Source: a virus
Direction: 5' to 3' (one strand)
DNA length: 63,636 nucleotides
Virus record (IMG/VR): IMGVR_UViG_3300050821_010780
Span: 1 to 63,636 of that record
Below are positions 2,318 to 8,988 of this stretch, piece after piece (position 1 is the stretch's first letter; each line of letters opens with the position of its first letter). A program made the translations under genes and the position numbers. A model generated the notes under the pieces. That model had not been told where the DNA came from, searched no databases, and worked only from the letters and a program-made list of their open reading frames with translations.

Positions 2318-2330
2318 ATGCATAATTATC
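2318..2330 (-). promoter_or_regulatory. Putative late promoter motif (degenerate copy)
   Basis: Plus-strand ATGC-ATA-ATTATC, lying 9 nt beyond the ATG of the coiled-coil gene (2309) and overlapping the stop codon of the upstream glycosyltransferase. It matches the recurrent ATGC-N3-A(A/T)TAT(G) element of this window. Confidence 0.35.
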
Positions 2331-3594
2331 CGTATGTTCTTTCGAATACGCTTATAAACTTTTTAGCTGTATTTTCCCAGCTATTATCGGTAATGTATGC
2401 AAATTGCTTGCTTATTTGCTCCTCCATTAGCTTTCTATTAGAAAATAGTTTGTCTATTTCACATGCCATATCTTCTATATTATCAGCTTTTATTGTTGGT
2501 AAGTCAGAAAAGTGTGGAATATCCGAAGAAACCACAGCAATACCCTTTGAAAATGCCAATCTTGCGGCGCCAGAAGCTCCAAATACTTCATGTTTTGGAT
2601 CAGAAATATATGGAAACAAAGCTACATTATTGGTTCGCAAGTAGCTATCAATTACTTCTTCTGATTGAAAGCCCCTAATAATAGCTATATTGTCTCGTAG
2701 CTCAAGCTGATCTATTAACTGAATTAACTCGTTATAGTATAACTGATGCCCAGTTTTATTTTGTTCAGTTTCCGAAAATAATATGGTCAAGAATATATCG
2801 CTATACTTCTTTTTAAGCTCCTTAACTACACATATTGAATTATGAAAACCTTTATAGTGGAAGCCAAATCCTTGATGAATAATAGTATGTTCTGATTTGT
2901 ATAGGTTCCATAATTTTTTATCTGTTGTTGTCTTATAACATCCATGAGGTATTACATAAACATCTCCTGAAATCTTCTTCTCGTCCTTCAAAATTTTTTT
3001 AGCACCATCAAGATGAACAATTACTTCCGCAATAGGAGCTTCACAAATGGTTTTATCAAGGTGATGAAATACGCTATGCAATATTATTATTGTGCGATAC
3101 TTTGATATTTGAGTCAGAAATGATAACCAATATCTAGCATTTGGAAATAGTCCATACTCATGATTGATTAGAATAATATCTGGATCATATTGTTTGATTT
3201 TATCAGTAAGATCTGTTAATAATTTACCACGCTCCCAACAAGTTATTGATCGATCATTCAGATTATAATGAGTGAGTAAATCATTTTTCTCAATGAATAG
3301 TTTAAAGTCTTTTATGTGTTTGATAATTTCGGGAAATAAGTTCTCTGCATATGTGCTAATTCCACATTGCATTGCCCAATTACTAACAAATGCAATCTTC
3401 ATATCTTTCGCTATAAATACTTCTTTGCGTTTGAATAAACTACCGTTTTTTAAAGTGTAATCAGTGAATAATTCCTTTGCCGATTTGTTTTCTAACTCAT
3501 CGGTAAGCTTAATAATCTTCAATCCGTCATTAATAATTGGACCATCGGACACAACGCATACATTGCCGTTTTTACATCCAATATACTTTGACAT
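2326..3594 (-). CDS. GT-B fold glycosyltransferase, family 4-like (422 aa)
   Basis: From about residue 65 the protein has a GT-B organisation. The N-terminal Rossmann start is MKIAFVSNWAMQCGISTYAE, the Gly-containing loop typical of GT4 enzymes. A mid segment reads YVIPHGCY, and a C-terminal donor-binding region reads NVALFPYISDPKHEVFGASG followed by AARLAFSKGIAVVSSDIPHF, matching the E-x-FG-xxxxEA-like region of glycosyl transferases group 1. A separate module of about 65 residues (SKYIGCKNGNVCVVSDGP) precedes the enzyme. The gene sits 6 nt after a pyruvyl-transferase-like gene. The likely role is glycosylation of virion fibres or host surface sugar; donor and acceptor cannot be read from sequence. 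Confidence 0.82.
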   Translation of the reverse strand: MSKYIGCKNGNVCVVSDGPIINDGLKIIKLTDELENKSAKELFTDYTLKNGSLFKRKEVFIAKDMKIAFVSNWAMQCGISTYAENLFPEIIKHIKDFKLFIEKNDLLTHYNLNDRSITCWERGKLLTDLTDKIKQYDPDIILINHEYGLFPNARYWLSFLTQISKYRTIIILHSVFHHLDKTICEAPIAEVIVHLDGAKKILKDEKKISGDVYVIPHGCYKTTTDKKLWNLYKSEHTIIHQGFGFHYKGFHNSICVVKELKKKYSDIFLTILFSETEQNKTGHQLYYNELIQLIDQLELRDNIAIIRGFQSEEVIDSYLRTNNVALFPYISDPKHEVFGASGAARLAFSKGIAVVSSDIPHFSDLPTIKADNIEDMACEIDKLFSNRKLMEEQISKQFAYITDNSWENTAKKFISVFERTYG

Positions 3595-3600
3595 ATCATC

Positions 3601-4533
3601 TCATAAAAGTTCATTCATTTTTTTTACCAGCTCGGCAAAATCCCCTACATAAATGTCGTTATATGTGCAAGCGTAAAATGCGTCTATTAGCTTTTGCTTC
3701 GTTATTTCGAAGTATGAAATCGATGCATTATGCATCAATTTATCGTGATGATGTATGGTTAAACAAGGTGTTTTACACATATTCGATAGGATTGTTCCGT
3801 GATATCTTTGGGTAATTATATTGGTATATGAACTGAATAATTTGGTGAGAGATGCAATATCTTTTTCGCAGTCAGTAATATACTTGGAACTTCTATGCCT
3901 CATCTTATTGATGATCTCCGCAGATGCAAAATTATCATTCAACTCATTGTCTCTACACATACCGAAAAGATTTATGCTGTATCTATCATCAATAAGTATA
4001 TCCAAAAATTGCGCAAACTCAATCTTGAACTTCTCCCAAAATACGTGTTCCCAATGAGATGTAAAATATTGAGGAACAACTGATACGTTAGGTAATATCA
4101 ATATCGATTTACTATGTCTATCTGATTGAATAACACAATCCGATAAAGAATATACCAAATCAGGAATGACTATTGTATTGGTATTCAGTGAGTAAAATAC
4201 TTCCTTCTTGATGACCGATCTAATAGCTACAAGCTTTGCTGCTTTAATAAGTTCAAGATGAAATGGATGAATATCTGTTTCAGATCCAACCCCAATATAG
4301 AAACTTGGCATCAATTTTATTGCGTTGATTGCATCATCTGAAATCAAAGGCTTTGTATCAAGAAAAGAGCCACCACCAAAAAAAAGAGCATCAACACCAA
4401 GAAGATGTTGACGCTCTATATGATCGGTGAATACGAAATGTATGTGCGGAAACAGCTTATGGAGTGCGTCTATAAAAAGCTGGTCTCCTATATTGTTCTT
4501 ATAATAAAATCCATATACTAAAACTTTTTTCAT
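3601..4533 (-). CDS. Polysaccharide pyruvyl transferase-like protein (310 aa)
   Basis: The protein begins MKKVLVYGFYYKNNIGDQLF, with the N-x-GD motif near the N-terminus, then LFFGGGSFLDTKP, FYIGVGSETD and TQRYHGTILSNMCKTPCL. These are the hallmarks of the polysaccharide pyruvyl transferase family (PF04230), including the conserved R-(Y)-HG near the C-terminus. I start it at 4533, not 24 nt upstream, because that ATG overlaps the previous stop as ATGA, a translational-coupling arrangement. It and the following glycosyltransferase probably form a small sugar-modification unit. Some family members act as glycosyltransferase-like enzymes, so the substrate is open. Confidence 0.8.
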   Translation of the reverse strand: MKKVLVYGFYYKNNIGDQLFIDALHKLFPHIHFVFTDHIERQHLLGVDALFFGGGSFLDTKPLISDDAINAIKLMPSFYIGVGSETDIHPFHLELIKAAKLVAIRSVIKKEVFYSLNTNTIVIPDLVYSLSDCVIQSDRHSKSILILPNVSVVPQYFTSHWEHVFWEKFKIEFAQFLDILIDDRYSINLFGMCRDNELNDNFASAEIINKMRHRSSKYITDCEKDIASLTKLFSSYTNIITQRYHGTILSNMCKTPCLTIHHHDKLMHNASISYFEITKQKLIDAFYACTYNDIYVGDFAELVKKMNELL

Positions 4534-5417
4534 AATAAGTAAAAATCTGATTGCCAAATACTTATTATTTTATATCCTAATTTTTTTAAGATCTTTTCTC
4601 TTTTAATGGTGGCCTTGAAAAGTTCTCCATATGTTTTATTTGCTTTTTTATTAAAATCATTAGGCTTAAATTTTTTAGGATTACCGTGCCAATAGTCTCC
4701 ATAGAATTCGTATATGGTATTGGTAGTTGGATCGTAAGCATCTACTTTAAATTTTTTATTCTTAATTTTGATAATATGTTGTCTATAATTTGTTGGAATT
4801 TTTAATAAATCGAGCCATCTTGTTTCTATTTTAGATATAGAAGATCTACATTTATCACACCCATGTCCCGATAAATGATGATTTGGTCTTTGTTCAAATT
4901 CACCATGAATTGGACAAATAATTATAATATTTGTATGTGAATTAATATAATTAATTTTACTATAATTAAAAACAAAATTATGAATTATATTAGCTTTTTT
5001 TATAAAATTTTCTTGACCTAAAATAATATTTTCAGTAGAACATTGTTGACATCCTGATCCATTCAAATGGATAGATGCTTGCTGCGGAAATTCACCGTGT
5101 TTTTTACAAATAATTATTATATCATTATGTGAATGAGTATATTCTACTTTTGAATAGTCAAAAATATTTCCATGAATTTTTTGAGCTGCCAAAATAAATT
5201 CTTCTGTTGTATAATATTTATTATCAATACCACATTGATAACAACCCTTTCCACTGCTATGAAGTCTTGGTTCTTGCTCAAATTCTTTATGTATTGGACA
5301 AATTATTATTACTGATGTTTTACTATTAATATAATTAACTTGTGAATAATCATATTTATGTCCATGTTTTATTACAGATTTAGCAACAAATTCTTCTTTT
5401 GTCTGTTTTTTCGGCAT
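4530..5417 (-). CDS. Zinc-ribbon-repeat (DUF723-like) homing-type nuclease with Vsr-like C-terminal domain (295 aa)
   Basis: Three repeats of about 60 residues read F-(x)n-HG-x-x-(Y/F)DYS-x-V-x-Y, then II-C-x-x-H-x-E-F-x-Q, then H-x-x-G-x-GC-x-x-C (first repeats end GCYQCG and GCQQCS). These look like DUF723-type zinc-binding DNA-recognition repeats. The C-terminal part (about residues 195-295) has VDAYDPTTNTIYEFYGDYWH and ends KKLGYKIISIWQSDF, which resembles the Vsr/EDxHD branch of PD-(D/E)XK nucleases. The gene overlaps the pyruvyl-transferase start as ATGA. It is one of three paralogues in the window, is AT-rich, and shares a leader with the 40970 copy. Likely a free-standing homing endonuclease. 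Confidence 0.8.
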   Translation of the reverse strand: MPKKQTKEEFVAKSVIKHGHKYDYSQVNYINSKTSVIIICPIHKEFEQEPRLHSSGKGCYQCGIDNKYYTTEEFILAAQKIHGNIFDYSKVEYTHSHNDIIIICKKHGEFPQQASIHLNGSGCQQCSTENIILGQENFIKKANIIHNFVFNYSKINYINSHTNIIIICPIHGEFEQRPNHHLSGHGCDKCRSSISKIETRWLDLLKIPTNYRQHIIKIKNKKFKVDAYDPTTNTIYEFYGDYWHGNPKKFKPNDFNKKANKTYGELFKATIKREKILKKLGYKIISIWQSDFYLL

Positions 5418-5435: not shown

Positions 5436-5693
5436 TCATTCCACGAAATCAACGGCCCAAGATACTGTTCGCACTCCGGATACATTCCACTTGATTTTGA
5501 GCATAAATGAACCATTACCAAAATTGACTTGCCAATCCAAAGTATCTTTATGACTATCACAAGGAGTAGTTCCCCCATCATCCTTGAATTCAACAAGAAT
5601 GGTAACGGGTTTTCCAAATAGCGTAATATCAACTTCATCCTGACCCGAAACATCAAGTGTTCCGGACATAATATTGTCGAGTGGTGTTGCCAT
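5436..5693 (-). CDS. Small beta-rich virion protein (85 aa)
   Basis: A compact 85-residue ORF with a clear ribosome-binding site (GGGAGAAT before the ATG) and a well-formed promoter motif about 45 nt upstream (5737-5749). The sequence alternates charged and hydrophobic residues (VDITLFGKPVTILVEFKDDG, then LKIKWNVSGVRTVSWAVDF), predicting a small beta-sandwich or barrel. Size and position downstream of the capsid region suggest a capsid decoration or head-completion protein. A longer overlapping minus-strand frame (5372-5656) has no start signal and is rejected. Confidence 0.65.
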   Translation of the reverse strand: MATPLDNIMSGTLDVSGQDEVDITLFGKPVTILVEFKDDGGTTPCDSHKDTLDWQVNFGNGSFMLKIKWNVSGVRTVSWAVDFVE

Positions 5694-5766: not shown

Positions 5767-7806
5767 TCACTTTCTGAACATATAGACGTTTTCGTACTTT
5801 GGTATGTTATGCTTAGTAAAGTGCGTTTTTTGTATGTGGAGTGGTATTTGCTCAATGATGTTTCCAAAACACTCCTTAGCCATATCCAACATTTGGGGAT
5901 ATCCAGAGACATTTAATCCAAACCATTTACCAGGTTTGAGCATTCGTTTGGTATTGCTCAAAGTCTTTTTCCAATACACATTATAGAAGTAGTCCTCATC
6001 TTTTGCATAAGCTTGTGTATTATCAGATGAATATACTTCCAGATTGTAGTATGGTGGAGAACTGAAAGCAAAATCAACGCAATCCTCTCCCAAATCTACA
6101 TTCTCCGAACCGTCCTGAATTAGTTGCACATCTTTCAAACCAAGATCAGTTTTAAGTTCAATCAAAGAAGGTGTGGTTAAAGGATCAACACCAATATATT
6201 TGCGACCACAAGACGTTGCCCCCAACATTCTTGTCCCCCATCCAGCGGAATAATCGTATACCGTATCACCAACTTCCGAATACTTGTGATAGACATATTT
6301 GGCTACCGCAGGCTTAAAAATAGAAACGTTGTAGCAAATCCCTGACGAGGCAAATCCTCTGACAATGTTTGAGAACGATATAGCAAACTTCTCTTTCGTT
6401 ATCCAATTTAAGCCAAGCCTATTTTCAATACACTTCATTAATAACTCATCATCATTAAATGCTTCAATTACCGATGGCTTATTGAGATATTTGGCTCCAT
6501 AGAAGTCTCGACAATATGATTTACATAGTATAGTGCATAAGCGACTAAATGGTTCCAATGAGATTAGGAATTTAGTATCCTCACATAGCTTTTTGTAATC
6601 GTCAAGTATTCGTTTATCGAAGGTGAAATTGAACCCATTATGCCTCAAACGATCCAAAATATCGTGCGCCATATATTGCTTATCTTCTTTGCTCATTTGA
6701 GCAACATTATCAGCAGTTAATTCTACACCATTAATATTGAGTACTTGGTGATATTCTGGATAATTACTGTGTAAATGTGCTTTTGGATATCCACGTGTTC
6801 CAACAAGCGTTTTTCTATCGATCTCTTCCATTTTCTGACTGAACCGTAAATAGGCTTGATATTTGCGCTCCAAATAAATTGTTGCACCAGCATACATCCA
6901 GTTTAAGAACTTCTGAATATTGCGATTACCACTAAAAGCAATTACCCAAGTGTTTTTATCCTTAGCTTCTTCACTATCATCATTCTTGTAGATGTTGCCT
7001 TTTACTATCGTATGTTTATGCATACCTTCGATGAACTCTTTTGTCGAGACAATTTTGCAACCGGAAAGCTTTTTGGTCTCATTGTTAATCGTGCCATCTC
7101 CATCAAAATATCCTCGAATGAAATGACGATGAAGCTTTCTATCCAACCATATTGGATACTGCAATAAAAAGGTTTTGCGCGGCATACATCCCTTCTTCAT
7201 AAGCTCAAAACATATGTGTTTGCTGTTGATATGCAGTGTATGCATTATACCACGATCTCTATTTTCATGTCTTCTATCATGAATGGTTATCTGTTTTTGA
7301 CTATCAGATGCATTCTTGTATATGAGCAACGATAACTTGTTTAGTATATCCCTATCTATCTCATTTAGGGAAAGATTAACTGCGTAATAGTGGTTTGTTT
7401 GATTACATCCATCAGCATATAAAAAGCCTAAAAAATAGGCCTTTTCTTCTGTATCAATTACATCAAAAAAATCCTCGTAAATGGGGTATATTCGATGCGC
7501 TTCTTCCGAAGATCTTCTTGGGATGTCCAAGCGTTTGAAATACCTCAATACAAGTCCCGCCCCAATACCGAATTCTTTCCCAACATCTTCAAGAGAGTAT
7601 CCGTCTTTATACATCGCCTCCATTGCCCTTATTTCGGTTTCCAGCTTCTTTGGACGATTTGGTCCTCGTCTTGGGATACTGTATTGTTTGAGCACTTTTA
7701 GAATGCAGTTTGGATGAATATCAAGTTCGTTGGCTATTTCGTTAGAACTTAATCCTCCGATGTATTTGTCGATAATCACTTGCTGTTTTTCAGTTGGTTG
7801 TTTCAT
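5767..7806 (-). CDS. HTH - LAGLIDADG homing endonuclease - DNA methyltransferase fusion (679 aa)
   Basis: Three modules are visible. Residues 1-95 hold two helix-turn-helix-like repeats, each ending in IPRR (SSNEIANELDIHPNCILKVL; SLEDVGKEFGIGAGLVLRYF). Residues 118-330 hold a LAGLIDADG endonuclease with both motifs intact: YFLGFLYADGC at 124-134 and FIRGYFDGDGTI at 229-240. Residues 390-679 form an amino-methyltransferase: SAM motif I VYDYSAGWG (516-524), YIGVDPL, and catalytic motif IV SSPPYYNLE (582-590). It is not an intein, since there is no N-terminal Cys/Ser nucleophile and no splicing C-terminus. The start ATG at 7806 is the first Met. Downstream is a gap of about 70 nt holding a promoter motif. 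Target specificity is unknown. Confidence 0.88.
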   Translation of the reverse strand: MKQPTEKQQVIIDKYIGGLSSNEIANELDIHPNCILKVLKQYSIPRRGPNRPKKLETEIRAMEAMYKDGYSLEDVGKEFGIGAGLVLRYFKRLDIPRRSSEEAHRIYPIYEDFFDVIDTEEKAYFLGFLYADGCNQTNHYYAVNLSLNEIDRDILNKLSLLIYKNASDSQKQITIHDRRHENRDRGIMHTLHINSKHICFELMKKGCMPRKTFLLQYPIWLDRKLHRHFIRGYFDGDGTINNETKKLSGCKIVSTKEFIEGMHKHTIVKGNIYKNDDSEEAKDKNTWVIAFSGNRNIQKFLNWMYAGATIYLERKYQAYLRFSQKMEEIDRKTLVGTRGYPKAHLHSNYPEYHQVLNINGVELTADNVAQMSKEDKQYMAHDILDRLRHNGFNFTFDKRILDDYKKLCEDTKFLISLEPFSRLCTILCKSYCRDFYGAKYLNKPSVIEAFNDDELLMKCIENRLGLNWITKEKFAISFSNIVRGFASSGICYNVSIFKPAVAKYVYHKYSEVGDTVYDYSAGWGTRMLGATSCGRKYIGVDPLTTPSLIELKTDLGLKDVQLIQDGSENVDLGEDCVDFAFSSPPYYNLEVYSSDNTQAYAKDEDYFYNVYWKKTLSNTKRMLKPGKWFGLNVSGYPQMLDMAKECFGNIIEQIPLHIQKTHFTKHNIPKYENVYMFRK

Positions 7807-7903
7807 TTGGCCGTAAACTCCTCTGCACCCATAATCTAATCAATGTTGGGTGTGTTGTCAATAAGATACTAACCAAATGCTGAAAGATTGGTTGATTTTG
7901 GAC

Positions 7904-7937
7904 AAAAAAGAGCCCGTGAAGAAAATTCCTCACGGGC
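7904..7937 (-). terminator. Rho-independent terminator after the major capsid gene
   Basis: An 8-bp perfect stem (plus strand GCCCGTGA at 7912-7919 pairs with TCACGGGC at 7930-7937), a 10-nt loop, and on the minus strand a TTTTTT run at 7909-7904. It lies 35 nt beyond the capsid stop codon. Confidence 0.9.
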
Positions 7938-7971
7938 CTTAAGATAAGCGAAAACAGGCTAAATTAGGCTA

Positions 7972-8988
7972 TTAGACGCCTACGAGAACGGATTTATTGC
8001 CCTTCGCACAGCCGCGAGGGTTAACTATTCCGATTCCGATAATTTCATTTACGACCCATCCGAGCTTTAATTGTTTCGGTTCGTCAGCAGGAAGCACCTC
8101 TATATCCTGACGAATTGGCATAACGCCCAAAAATTCGGGATCTGCTCCTGCGTATACCGTTCCTGGCGGGACAATCTTGCTTACGAGAATGTCTGCACCC
8201 CAGAGATGGGCATATAGACCAGTTTGGAGGATTTCACGTTGTGTCACGGGATCAACTTCGCCACCGCCAACGCCTTGTCCGCCACCAGAGCCCCAGCCAA
8301 GAATATCATTGAACTCATTTATGTTCATAAAGAACTTGGTCGTTACGAGGTCCCAACGATCAACCTGAACTTTGAGCTCACGAAGATCGCGCTTAAGCAT
8401 ACCTGCATCTGCAATATCTTGAACTGTGTTTTCAACAGACGCTGCGGCATCGAGAGCTGCGAAAATGTTCGCATCTTCTTGTGCCATTATTTCTTGACGT
8501 GCTTTCTGAACCGCACGGTCAATTACGTTAAACCGACGACGCTTGACTTCTGCGATACGAACGGTGGGATTCGAATAGATTTCGAACTCGGGAACAACGA
8601 CACGATCACCGAATACGCGTGACTCGGGACCTGTACCGTTTGACGAGATTACGACTGCGGCGACATCGATATCGCGGTCATACGTCGGTAAAGCACCTTG
8701 CGGTAATGGATCTACAACAAGTGCCCTACGAGCGAGACCATGATAGTCCAAATTTCGGCGAATTGGATTTGCCATTGCTTGTGCAAGCGCAAGCTTTCCT
8801 TCCTGAGTGTTAATTGCTCTGCTTATTAGACTGTCGCGAGCATCTTCTGACATAGAAGGCGATGTTAGCCCAACATTTGAGGGTTGGCCTTCTTGTAGAA
8901 GTGATGCGTATTTTGCGATCTGCGTGAGTGCATCACGAAGATCCGAGGCATTCATTTGCCCCTGGTTATTGAACATTGAATTACTCAT
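7972..8988 (-). CDS. Major capsid protein, HK97-like (338 aa)
   Basis: The protein fits a short HK97-fold major capsid protein. A helical N-terminal arm is followed by PIRRNLDYHGLARRALVVDP, then an E-loop-like region with VVVPEFEIYSNPTVRIAEVK, a spine-helix-like stretch (RRRFNVIDRAVQKARQEIM), and a C-terminal beta region (GADILVSKIVPPGTVYAGAD; LKLGWVVNEIIGIGIVNPRG). Codon use and GC are higher than in the neighbours, as expected for a highly expressed gene. It has an AAAGGAA ribosome-binding site, a promoter motif about 70 nt upstream and a strong terminator. No N-terminal propeptide cleavage site can be assigned from sequence alone. Confidence 0.85.
   Translation of the reverse strand: MSNSMFNNQGQMNASDLRDALTQIAKYASLLQEGQPSNVGLTSPSMSEDARDSLISRAINTQEGKLALAQAMANPIRRNLDYHGLARRALVVDPLPQGALPTYDRDIDVAAVVISSNGTGPESRVFGDRVVVPEFEIYSNPTVRIAEVKRRRFNVIDRAVQKARQEIMAQEDANIFAALDAAASVENTVQDIADAGMLKRDLRELKVQVDRWDLVTTKFFMNINEFNDILGWGSGGGQGVGGGEVDPVTQREILQTGLYAHLWGADILVSKIVPPGTVYAGADPEFLGVMPIRQDIEVLPADEPKQLKLGWVVNEIIGIGIVNPRGCAKGNKSVLVGV

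Follow-up and report, generated by a model that had tools for sequence, protein, structure and literature searches.

A LAGLIDADG nuclease fused to a probable DNA methyltransferase beside a viral capsid gene belongs to a family with several homing-type nuclease partners

One gene in the window, a stretch of viral DNA of 63,636 nucleotides (IMG/VR record IMGVR_UViG_3300050821_010780), encodes a protein in which two helix-turn-helix (HTH) repeats and a LAGLIDADG nuclease are followed, after a linker, by an amino-methyltransferase. We report that this methyltransferase belongs to a subfamily that, to judge from sequence, is repeatedly fused to unrelated homing-type nucleases of at least four types. 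Throughout, P0001 is the fused protein of the window, and L-numbers (e.g. L014) denote the loci or proteins of relatives.

Results

The fused gene and its surroundings

The fused open reading frame (7806..5767, minus strand) encodes 679 amino acids in one frame with no internal stop, and the plus strand over positions 5767-7806 is dense with stop codons (Table 1). The HTH-LAGLIDADG-methyltransferase architecture of P0001 is confirmed, well above chance: the original prediction of a 679-residue protein with tandem HTH repeats, both LAGLIDADG motifs and an intact methyltransferase is borne out by Pfam, PHROG, AlphaFold2 and motif evidence. The AlphaFold2 model, computed with 40 relatives, has a mean pLDDT of 87.6 and a pTM of 0.54; given this pTM and the pLDDT below 50 in the linker (residues 335-350), we read it as two well-modelled modules whose relative placement is not fixed. 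GC/GC3 is alike in the two halves of the gene (0.372/0.370 and 0.368/0.355), so composition gives no hint of a recent join. At least about 20 other contigs carry full-length homologues of P0001 with the same architecture; the two-domain order thus recurs elsewhere, and these independent homologues exclude the joining of two genes by a sequencing error, an objection that the prediction had itself raised. The further suggestion that an endonuclease gene colonised a phage methylase is not supported as an insertion: no break interrupts the methylase, and the nuclease lies N-terminal to it. An intein reading was rejected on similar grounds, since the nuclease module starts near residue 1, leaving no N-extein, and the methyltransferase (residues 348-679) is collinear with the standalone methyltransferases L016-L019 and L142.

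The fused gene starts about 165 bp past the major capsid gene, behind the capsid terminator, and the capsid genes of relatives have a similar terminator behind them. The promoter-like site before the fused gene should be read with caution, as such matches are equally frequent in shuffled sequence and not above chance in this region. Downstream of the fused gene lie a small ORF (5436-5693) and then a treble-clef/EDxHD nuclease gene (4530-5417, minus strand; PHROG 559), a second mobile-type nuclease two genes away from the fusion, which is probably a recent arrival because its GC3 is so low (0.12, far below its neighbours). Not far from the capsid gene, genes for a polysaccharide pyruvyl transferase and a glycosyltransferase occupy 2326-4557 (minus strand); in locus L111, too, these two and the small ORF come after the fusion. 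In an Rfam scan of the window, L012 and L013 nothing reached the gathering score, and the fused gene thus has no recognised intron or RNA family around it.

Table 1. Features of the fused gene and its neighbourhood (window coordinates unless a locus is given)
Feature	Position	Strand	Basis
Fused gene: HTH-HTH-LAGLIDADG nuclease-linker-amino-methyltransferase, 679 aa	5767..7806	-	ORF, Pfam, PHROG, AlphaFold2
First helix-turn-helix, residues 6-41	7684..7791	-	AlphaFold2 helices 6-16, 21-28, 32-41; weak HTH_38
Second helix-turn-helix, residues 56-92	7531..7641	-	AlphaFold2 helices 56-67, 72-78, 83-92; weak HTH_7/Sigma70_r4
Monomeric two-motif LAGLIDADG nuclease domain, residues 116-321	6844..7461	-	PF14528, PHROG 4645, VIA
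LAGLIDADG motif 1, AYFLGFLYADG, residues 123-133	7408..7440	-	sequence motif
LAGLIDADG motif 2, HFIRGYFDGDG, residues 228-238	7093..7125	-	sequence motif
Flexible linker, residues 335-350	6757..6804	-	pLDDT under 50; same linker ends endonuclease-only L092-L101
Methyltransferase module, residues 348-679: helical N-part and Rossmann catalytic part	5770..6765	-	family HMM, structure model
Motif I, YDYSAGWGTRMLG, residues 517-529, AdoMet binding	6220..6258	-	sequence motif
Motif IV, SSPPYY, residues 582-587, N4-cytosine-type catalytic motif	6046..6063	-	sequence motif
Major capsid protein gene, anchor of insertion slot	7972..8988	-	PHROG 2522 major head protein, E=1.9e-77
Intrinsic terminator of capsid gene, upstream of fused gene	7911..7938	-	12-bp stem and T run
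Promoter-like site TTGACA-17-TAGATT, then GAGGAG ribosome-binding-like sequence	7833..7861	-	shortly before fused-gene start codon
GNAT-type genes of relatives	L016:4227-4979, L017:4210-4995, L018:4234-4995, L019:4238-4987, L142:2574-3323

The two halves of P0001

The nuclease half, taken by itself, is an ordinary member of a known family of free-standing phage endonucleases. Pfam LAGLIDADG_3 scores 38.3 bits (cut-off 22.5), PHROG 4645 ("endonuclease") matches residues 21-324 with E=2.9e-57, and both LAGLIDADG motifs end in the catalytic Asp; the Pfam HTH matches are all sub-threshold. VIA comparison of residues 116-321 returns a pseudo-dimeric LAGLIDADG fold (Z 17.6 to PI-PfuI, 15.3 to I-Tsp061I and 15.2 to I-DmoI), and a PDB profile search also brings up I-Tsp061I. 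The free-standing endonucleases of PHROG 4645, from Staphylococcus Twort-like and Bacillus phages, have the same two HTHs and two LAGLIDADG motifs, but in the matched phage records they are not joined to the methyltransferase.

The methyltransferase half is probably of the N4-cytosine type. Its motif IV fits the S/T-S-P-P-Y pattern typical of N4-cytosine DNA methyltransferases; Pfam N6_N4_Mtase reaches 25.7 bits against a cut-off of 26.7 and exceeds the cut-off in the homologues L010 and L021, and PHROG 12517 (function not annotated) covers residues 487-626. A profile of relatives matches solved DNA modification methylases in the PDB, two of them cytosine-N4 enzymes, and sequence profiles also match PADLOC type II methyltransferases. 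By structure the module resembles class-I methyltransferases (VIA Z 18.6, top match Trm11), the top Foldseek and VIA neighbours being tRNA m2G methyltransferases. In the model the protein stops right after the catalytic domain, with no separate C-terminal target-recognition domain.

One methyltransferase family, several nuclease partners

We collected the family by querying IMG/VR with aligned methyltransferase halves, then with more distant members, and by searching GTDB genomes too; alignment queries were needed, as single-sequence IMG/VR queries (P0001, its methylase half, L022) returned nothing or almost nothing new. Nearly all relatives are metagenomic contigs. The family tree takes in 71 methyltransferases, 49 of them nuclease fusions, and in every fused protein found the methyltransferase is C-terminal to its partner. 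Pfam was run on a sample of the fused proteins and the remaining partners were assigned by motif or close similarity, which gave HTH-LAGLIDADG_3 (n=15), HTH-LAGLIDADG_2 (n=22), zinc-finger/HTH with a PD-(D/E)XK-like nuclease (n=11) and HNH (L235; PHROG 374, E=4.5e-105). The PD-(D/E)XK-like partners over the Pfam cut-off are Vsr in L003 and TnsA-like in L022 and L202. The nuclease regions of L222 and L224 match a PHROG homing endonuclease (E about 1e-5); a PDB sequence search with the L224 region found nothing credible, and VIA and Foldseek matches of L224 were all to the methyltransferase and so uninformative on the nuclease, which leaves the assignment in the L224 clade resting on the PHROG homing-endonuclease matches and a conserved D..E.HG. 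The N-terminal part of L188 could not be assigned, and L188 is left out of the count of nuclease fusions. The original prediction was thus right that the fusion is real and understated matters in calling it unusual: it is a widespread family with at least four nuclease types.

Partner type changes at least 14 times on the tree of 71 methyltransferases, which has several long branches and unsure deep nodes. The TnsA-like L022 is sister to the LAGLIDADG_3 fusions L021 and L112 (SH-aLRT 98-99), and the L033/L222 PD-(D/E)XK clade is sister to a LAGLIDADG_2 clade (SH-aLRT 91; 95 in a smaller sample). In the endonuclease tree, well supported branches require at least four switches between the fused and the free-standing state. 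The reverse search, from the LAGLIDADG_3 endonuclease alone, gave 74 distinct proteins among the matches listed: 57 are endonuclease only, 10 of the 74 are fused to the methyltransferase (a share that leans upward, the query alignment having held nuclease halves of fused members), 4 have HTH-rich or unannotated extensions and 3 are truncated. None of the 74 has any other recognisable enzyme as fusion partner, so the partnership of LAGLIDADG_3 and methyltransferase appears specific.

Among 50,697 phage records there was no cultured carrier of the LAGLIDADG_3 form, and none of the 158 matched records covers 80% of P0001 at one place. The fusions in archaeal and bacterial metagenome-assembled genomes (L183, L195, L202, L209) may be viral or misbinned. 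L183:2861-7314, on a 17 kb contig of a Candidatus Altiarchaeales assembly, holds two different LAGLIDADG_2-methyltransferase fusions in tandem.

Active sites and standalone methyltransferases

Both LAGLIDADG motifs keep their Asp in 14 of the 15 fused LAGLIDADG_3 proteins; the exception is L113, with DGKG in motif 2 and an intact methyltransferase motif. The motifs are intact in nearly all LAGLIDADG_2 fusions, and motif IV (S/T-S/C-P-P-Y/F) is present in all fused proteins but L003 (TSIPYF) and L112 (SSTPYY). Since the motifs are intact nearly everywhere, selection seems to retain both activities jointly, with occasional loss of one. The relatives of the methyltransferase are therefore far from a set that shares one dead LAGLIDADG insert at one site, an outcome the original prediction had allowed for: some have no nuclease, some the same one and some others, and the catalytic Asp is nearly always kept.

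The five standalone methyltransferases closest to that of the window (L016-L019, L142) have no nuclease at all and lie mostly within a few kb of a capsid gene, and each of the five is directly preceded by a homologous GNAT-type (LPG_synthase_C-like) gene of 250-262 aa (Table 1). This pairing suggests a joint modification function, and thus the methyltransferase may have a role of its own.

A capsid-side slot and an occupied/empty pair

The full-length homologues with the P0001 architecture share a single slot on the 3' side of the major capsid gene. A capsid-anchored scan listed 80 relatives with capsid proteins 78-86% identical (its E-values being relative to the candidates only), and removal of identical capsid sequences left 64 distinct loci. 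Among these listed matches, whose frequencies are not unbiased, the slot holds an endonuclease-methyltransferase fusion at 10 loci, an endonuclease-only gene at 12, neither at 31, and endonuclease, GNAT and methyltransferase as separate genes at 1, the remaining 10 being cut by contig ends. L167, one of the fusions, points the opposite way. The nuclease half of P0001 is 52% identical to the endonuclease-only genes L092-L101 in the same slot.

The most direct observation on mobility comes from L014 and L105, an occupied/empty pair from one metagenome (3300032053). The interval is 2,215 bp in L014 (2837-5051) and 197 bp in L105, the flanks are 91.3% identical on the capsid side and 80.1% on the downstream side, and the right boundary of the insert coincides with the end of the fused ORF. 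Because the insert spans the whole fused ORF, the mobile unit is nuclease and methyltransferase together; it is in this pair of relatives, as distinct from the window itself, that the whole fused ORF was seen to come or go in one piece. The slot survey of capsid relatives found no empty allele close to the window's own locus, and the 3'-end sequences of the major capsid genes, whose divergence is too high to name a site, held no obvious shared target that separates carriers from non-carriers.

Other arrangements were seen around the capsid gene. In L012:1682-3753 and L013:1592-3782 (contigs of 353 kb and 394 kb) the capsid gene is split, with an ORF between the parts; that of L013 is a LAGLIDADG_3 endonuclease in a gap that matches a group I intron weakly (E=4.9e-5, below the gathering score), and no intron was detected in the L012 gap. 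Packed end to end behind the capsid gene in L021:944-5235 are an endonuclease-only gene, an endonuclease-methyltransferase fusion and, on the opposite strand, a standalone methyltransferase. A gene of about 413 aa, which by the appearance of its sequence resembles a CCA-adding enzyme, adjoins the capsid gene on the opposite strand in many relatives (e.g. L110:2858-4096 and L116:7078-8316, both minus strand).

Discussion

Relation to known systems

In the literature searched, which was mostly open-access, we found no description of this fusion family; what comes nearest to the combination in print is the mycobacteriophage ShiLan gp65-type DNA methylase, which carries insertions, one of them a "seemingly lone LAGLIDADG" (PMC11855218). 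As in P0001, a phage DNA methylase there carries a LAGLIDADG endonuclease with no detectable intein or intron (PMC11855218). In ShiLan, however, the endonuclease lies inside the methylase and is vertically inherited in one group (PMC11855218), whereas P0001, set apart by that description, has a complete N-terminal nuclease before an uninterrupted methylase, and in its family the partner nuclease varies between lineages.

Type IIC/IIG restriction enzymes such as BpuSI likewise hold an N-terminal nuclease and a C-terminal amino-methyltransferase in one chain, and would work in the same way if both activities of P0001 use one site. Classical enzymes of this type combine a PD-(D/E)XK nuclease with a separate specificity domain. 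P0001 has LAGLIDADG instead, only relatives such as L003, L022 and L202 being PD-(D/E)XK-like, and the separate recognition domain is absent; lacking these two defining features, it could resemble a Type IIC enzyme at most in how it acts. The word "LAGLIDADG" is absent from the text of a review of Type II restriction enzymes (PMC4081073), and "methyl" from that of a survey of phage homing-endonuclease architectures (PMC10448857).

Related methyltransferase domains occur in other settings. Mad2 (PADLOC mads_2) is one (L221 against mad2, E=1.7e-14), and ParB-methylase phage proteins are another, the fusions L205-L207 falling within the same methyltransferase tree; no homing-type nuclease was seen in L205-L207, and we know of none fused to Mad2 or ParB-methylase proteins. 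The Vsr-like nuclease-Mom phage proteins (PHROG 559/3339) also join a homing-type nuclease to a DNA-modifying enzyme, but there the modifier is a Mom-type acyltransferase, not a methyltransferase. Proteins with a Vsr/EDxHD nuclease and a Mom-like (PF25680) domain were seen in L022:2549-4003, L003:3-1310, L171, L173, L175 (LR756508) and L172 (Prevotella phage Lak-A2); there are several such genes per huge-phage genome, labelled in PHROGs only as endonucleases. In L022 one lies just upstream of the nuclease-methyltransferase fusion, as does its homologue in L003; Mom (PF25680) is absent from the window, so the link is not general. What is unusual is the breadth of partner nucleases for one methyltransferase.

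A restriction-modification-like reading and its rivals

Since the same methylase has at least four kinds of DNA-cutting partner in phages, the gene may be a mobile one that can cut rival DNA and protect its own. We accordingly favor, with our judgement evenly divided for and against, a mobile restriction-modification-like homing enzyme that would cut unmodified DNA and methylate its own at a shared target; the "compact self-protecting selfish element" of the original prediction appears to be the best reading of the gene. The HTH and LAGLIDADG parts would recognise a long site, which may lie beside the capsid gene of a co-infecting phage, and cleave it, upon which repair would copy the fused gene across or the rival phage would be damaged. 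The tethered methyltransferase, probably of N4-cytosine type, would modify the carrier's own target copies or nearby DNA, and a carrier so protected could keep its own site intact. Interference competition between co-infecting phages is one role that phage homing endonucleases can play, as reported for the intron endonuclease gp210 (PMC11620839). Standalone methyltransferases, and a carrier with a damaged LAGLIDADG motif, could represent immunity genes against such elements.

This restriction-modification-like reading draws on the same end-to-end architecture in independent contigs, on four unrelated nuclease types with close-kin methyltransferases attached to different nucleases, and on active sites kept almost everywhere, the reverse search, the L014/L105 pair and the slot survey. 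Against it, the match between cleavage and methylation sites is something we infer, and exchanging the nuclease while the methyltransferase stays would undo a shared specificity unless specificity were swapped too. The structural neighbours are led by tRNA m2G enzymes, so the modelled fold would be compatible with an RNA target; a few members (L113, and L003 and L112 with altered motifs) appear to have lost one activity; endonuclease-only homologues thrive in the same slot with no methyltransferase; and standalone methyltransferases pair with a GNAT gene in close kin.

The chief rival holds that the methyltransferase is cargo, independently useful in an anti-restriction or epigenetic role and translationally joined to homing endonucleases, with cleavage driving spread and methylation sheltering the phage from host restriction enzymes whose sites are unrelated. 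Phages often carry orphan methyltransferases, standalone homologues exist here (five beside a GNAT gene, most near a capsid gene), and L113 keeps its methyltransferase motif behind a damaged LAGLIDADG motif; the standalone genes L016-L019 and L142 could, however, equally be read as genes for immunity to the mobile element. A passenger would not need to be joined independently to four or more nuclease types in constant order and frame, the listed LAGLIDADG_3 endonucleases have no other recognisable enzyme partner, and 57 endonuclease-only homologues among the matches listed do without the methyltransferase, so that we regard cargo as unlikely, if a serious contender. It is quite improbable that the HTH and LAGLIDADG parts mainly guide methylation to one site, for instance in capsid regulation, with cleavage vestigial: the gene does adjoin the capsid gene, and DNA-binding domains of homing endonucleases are known to have become capsid repressors (CapR, PMC10448857), but the catalytic Asp and the motifs are retained in almost all LAGLIDADG_3 and LAGLIDADG_2 fusions, and presence/absence polymorphism at a precise site resembles homing.

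Methylation of RNA or protein, with the halves joined by chance or for reasons of expression, would fit the tRNA m2G methyltransferases at the top of the Foldseek and VIA matches; we consider it very improbable, as the N4-cytosine-type motif IV, the profile matches to DNA modification methylases and PADLOC type II methyltransferases, and the action of every partner nuclease on DNA all point the other way. An artefact or neutral read-through, in which a sequencing or assembly error or one lost stop codon joined two genes, might be suspected from the poorly ordered linker, within which endonuclease-only homologues end; the chance of it is negligible, the same fusion occurring in many independent contigs and with four nuclease types, and the homologues already refute it.

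We propose more tentatively, and with some doubt prevailing, that the restriction-modification-like reading extends to a general phage strategy, in which one methyltransferase module placed on many homing nucleases would make a mobile single-gene restriction-modification system. The carrier's target would be protected, conserved genes such as that of the capsid could be attacked while the carrier's own copy stays uninterrupted, and standalone methyltransferases at the locus would be immunity genes.

Implications

The usual view of homing endonucleases is that self-cleavage is avoided once their insertion, or divergence in sequence, has removed their own site. If the restriction-modification-like reading is true, a methyltransferase that is tethered and exchangeable would be a further way round self-cleavage, and homing genes and restriction-modification systems would be two ends of one continuum. 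At present many such fused genes carry no label beyond "endonuclease" or "methylase". The family offers natural nuclease-methylase pairs whose recognition sites are probably long, and it makes testable the long-standing question of whether mobile nucleases and restriction-modification systems interconvert.
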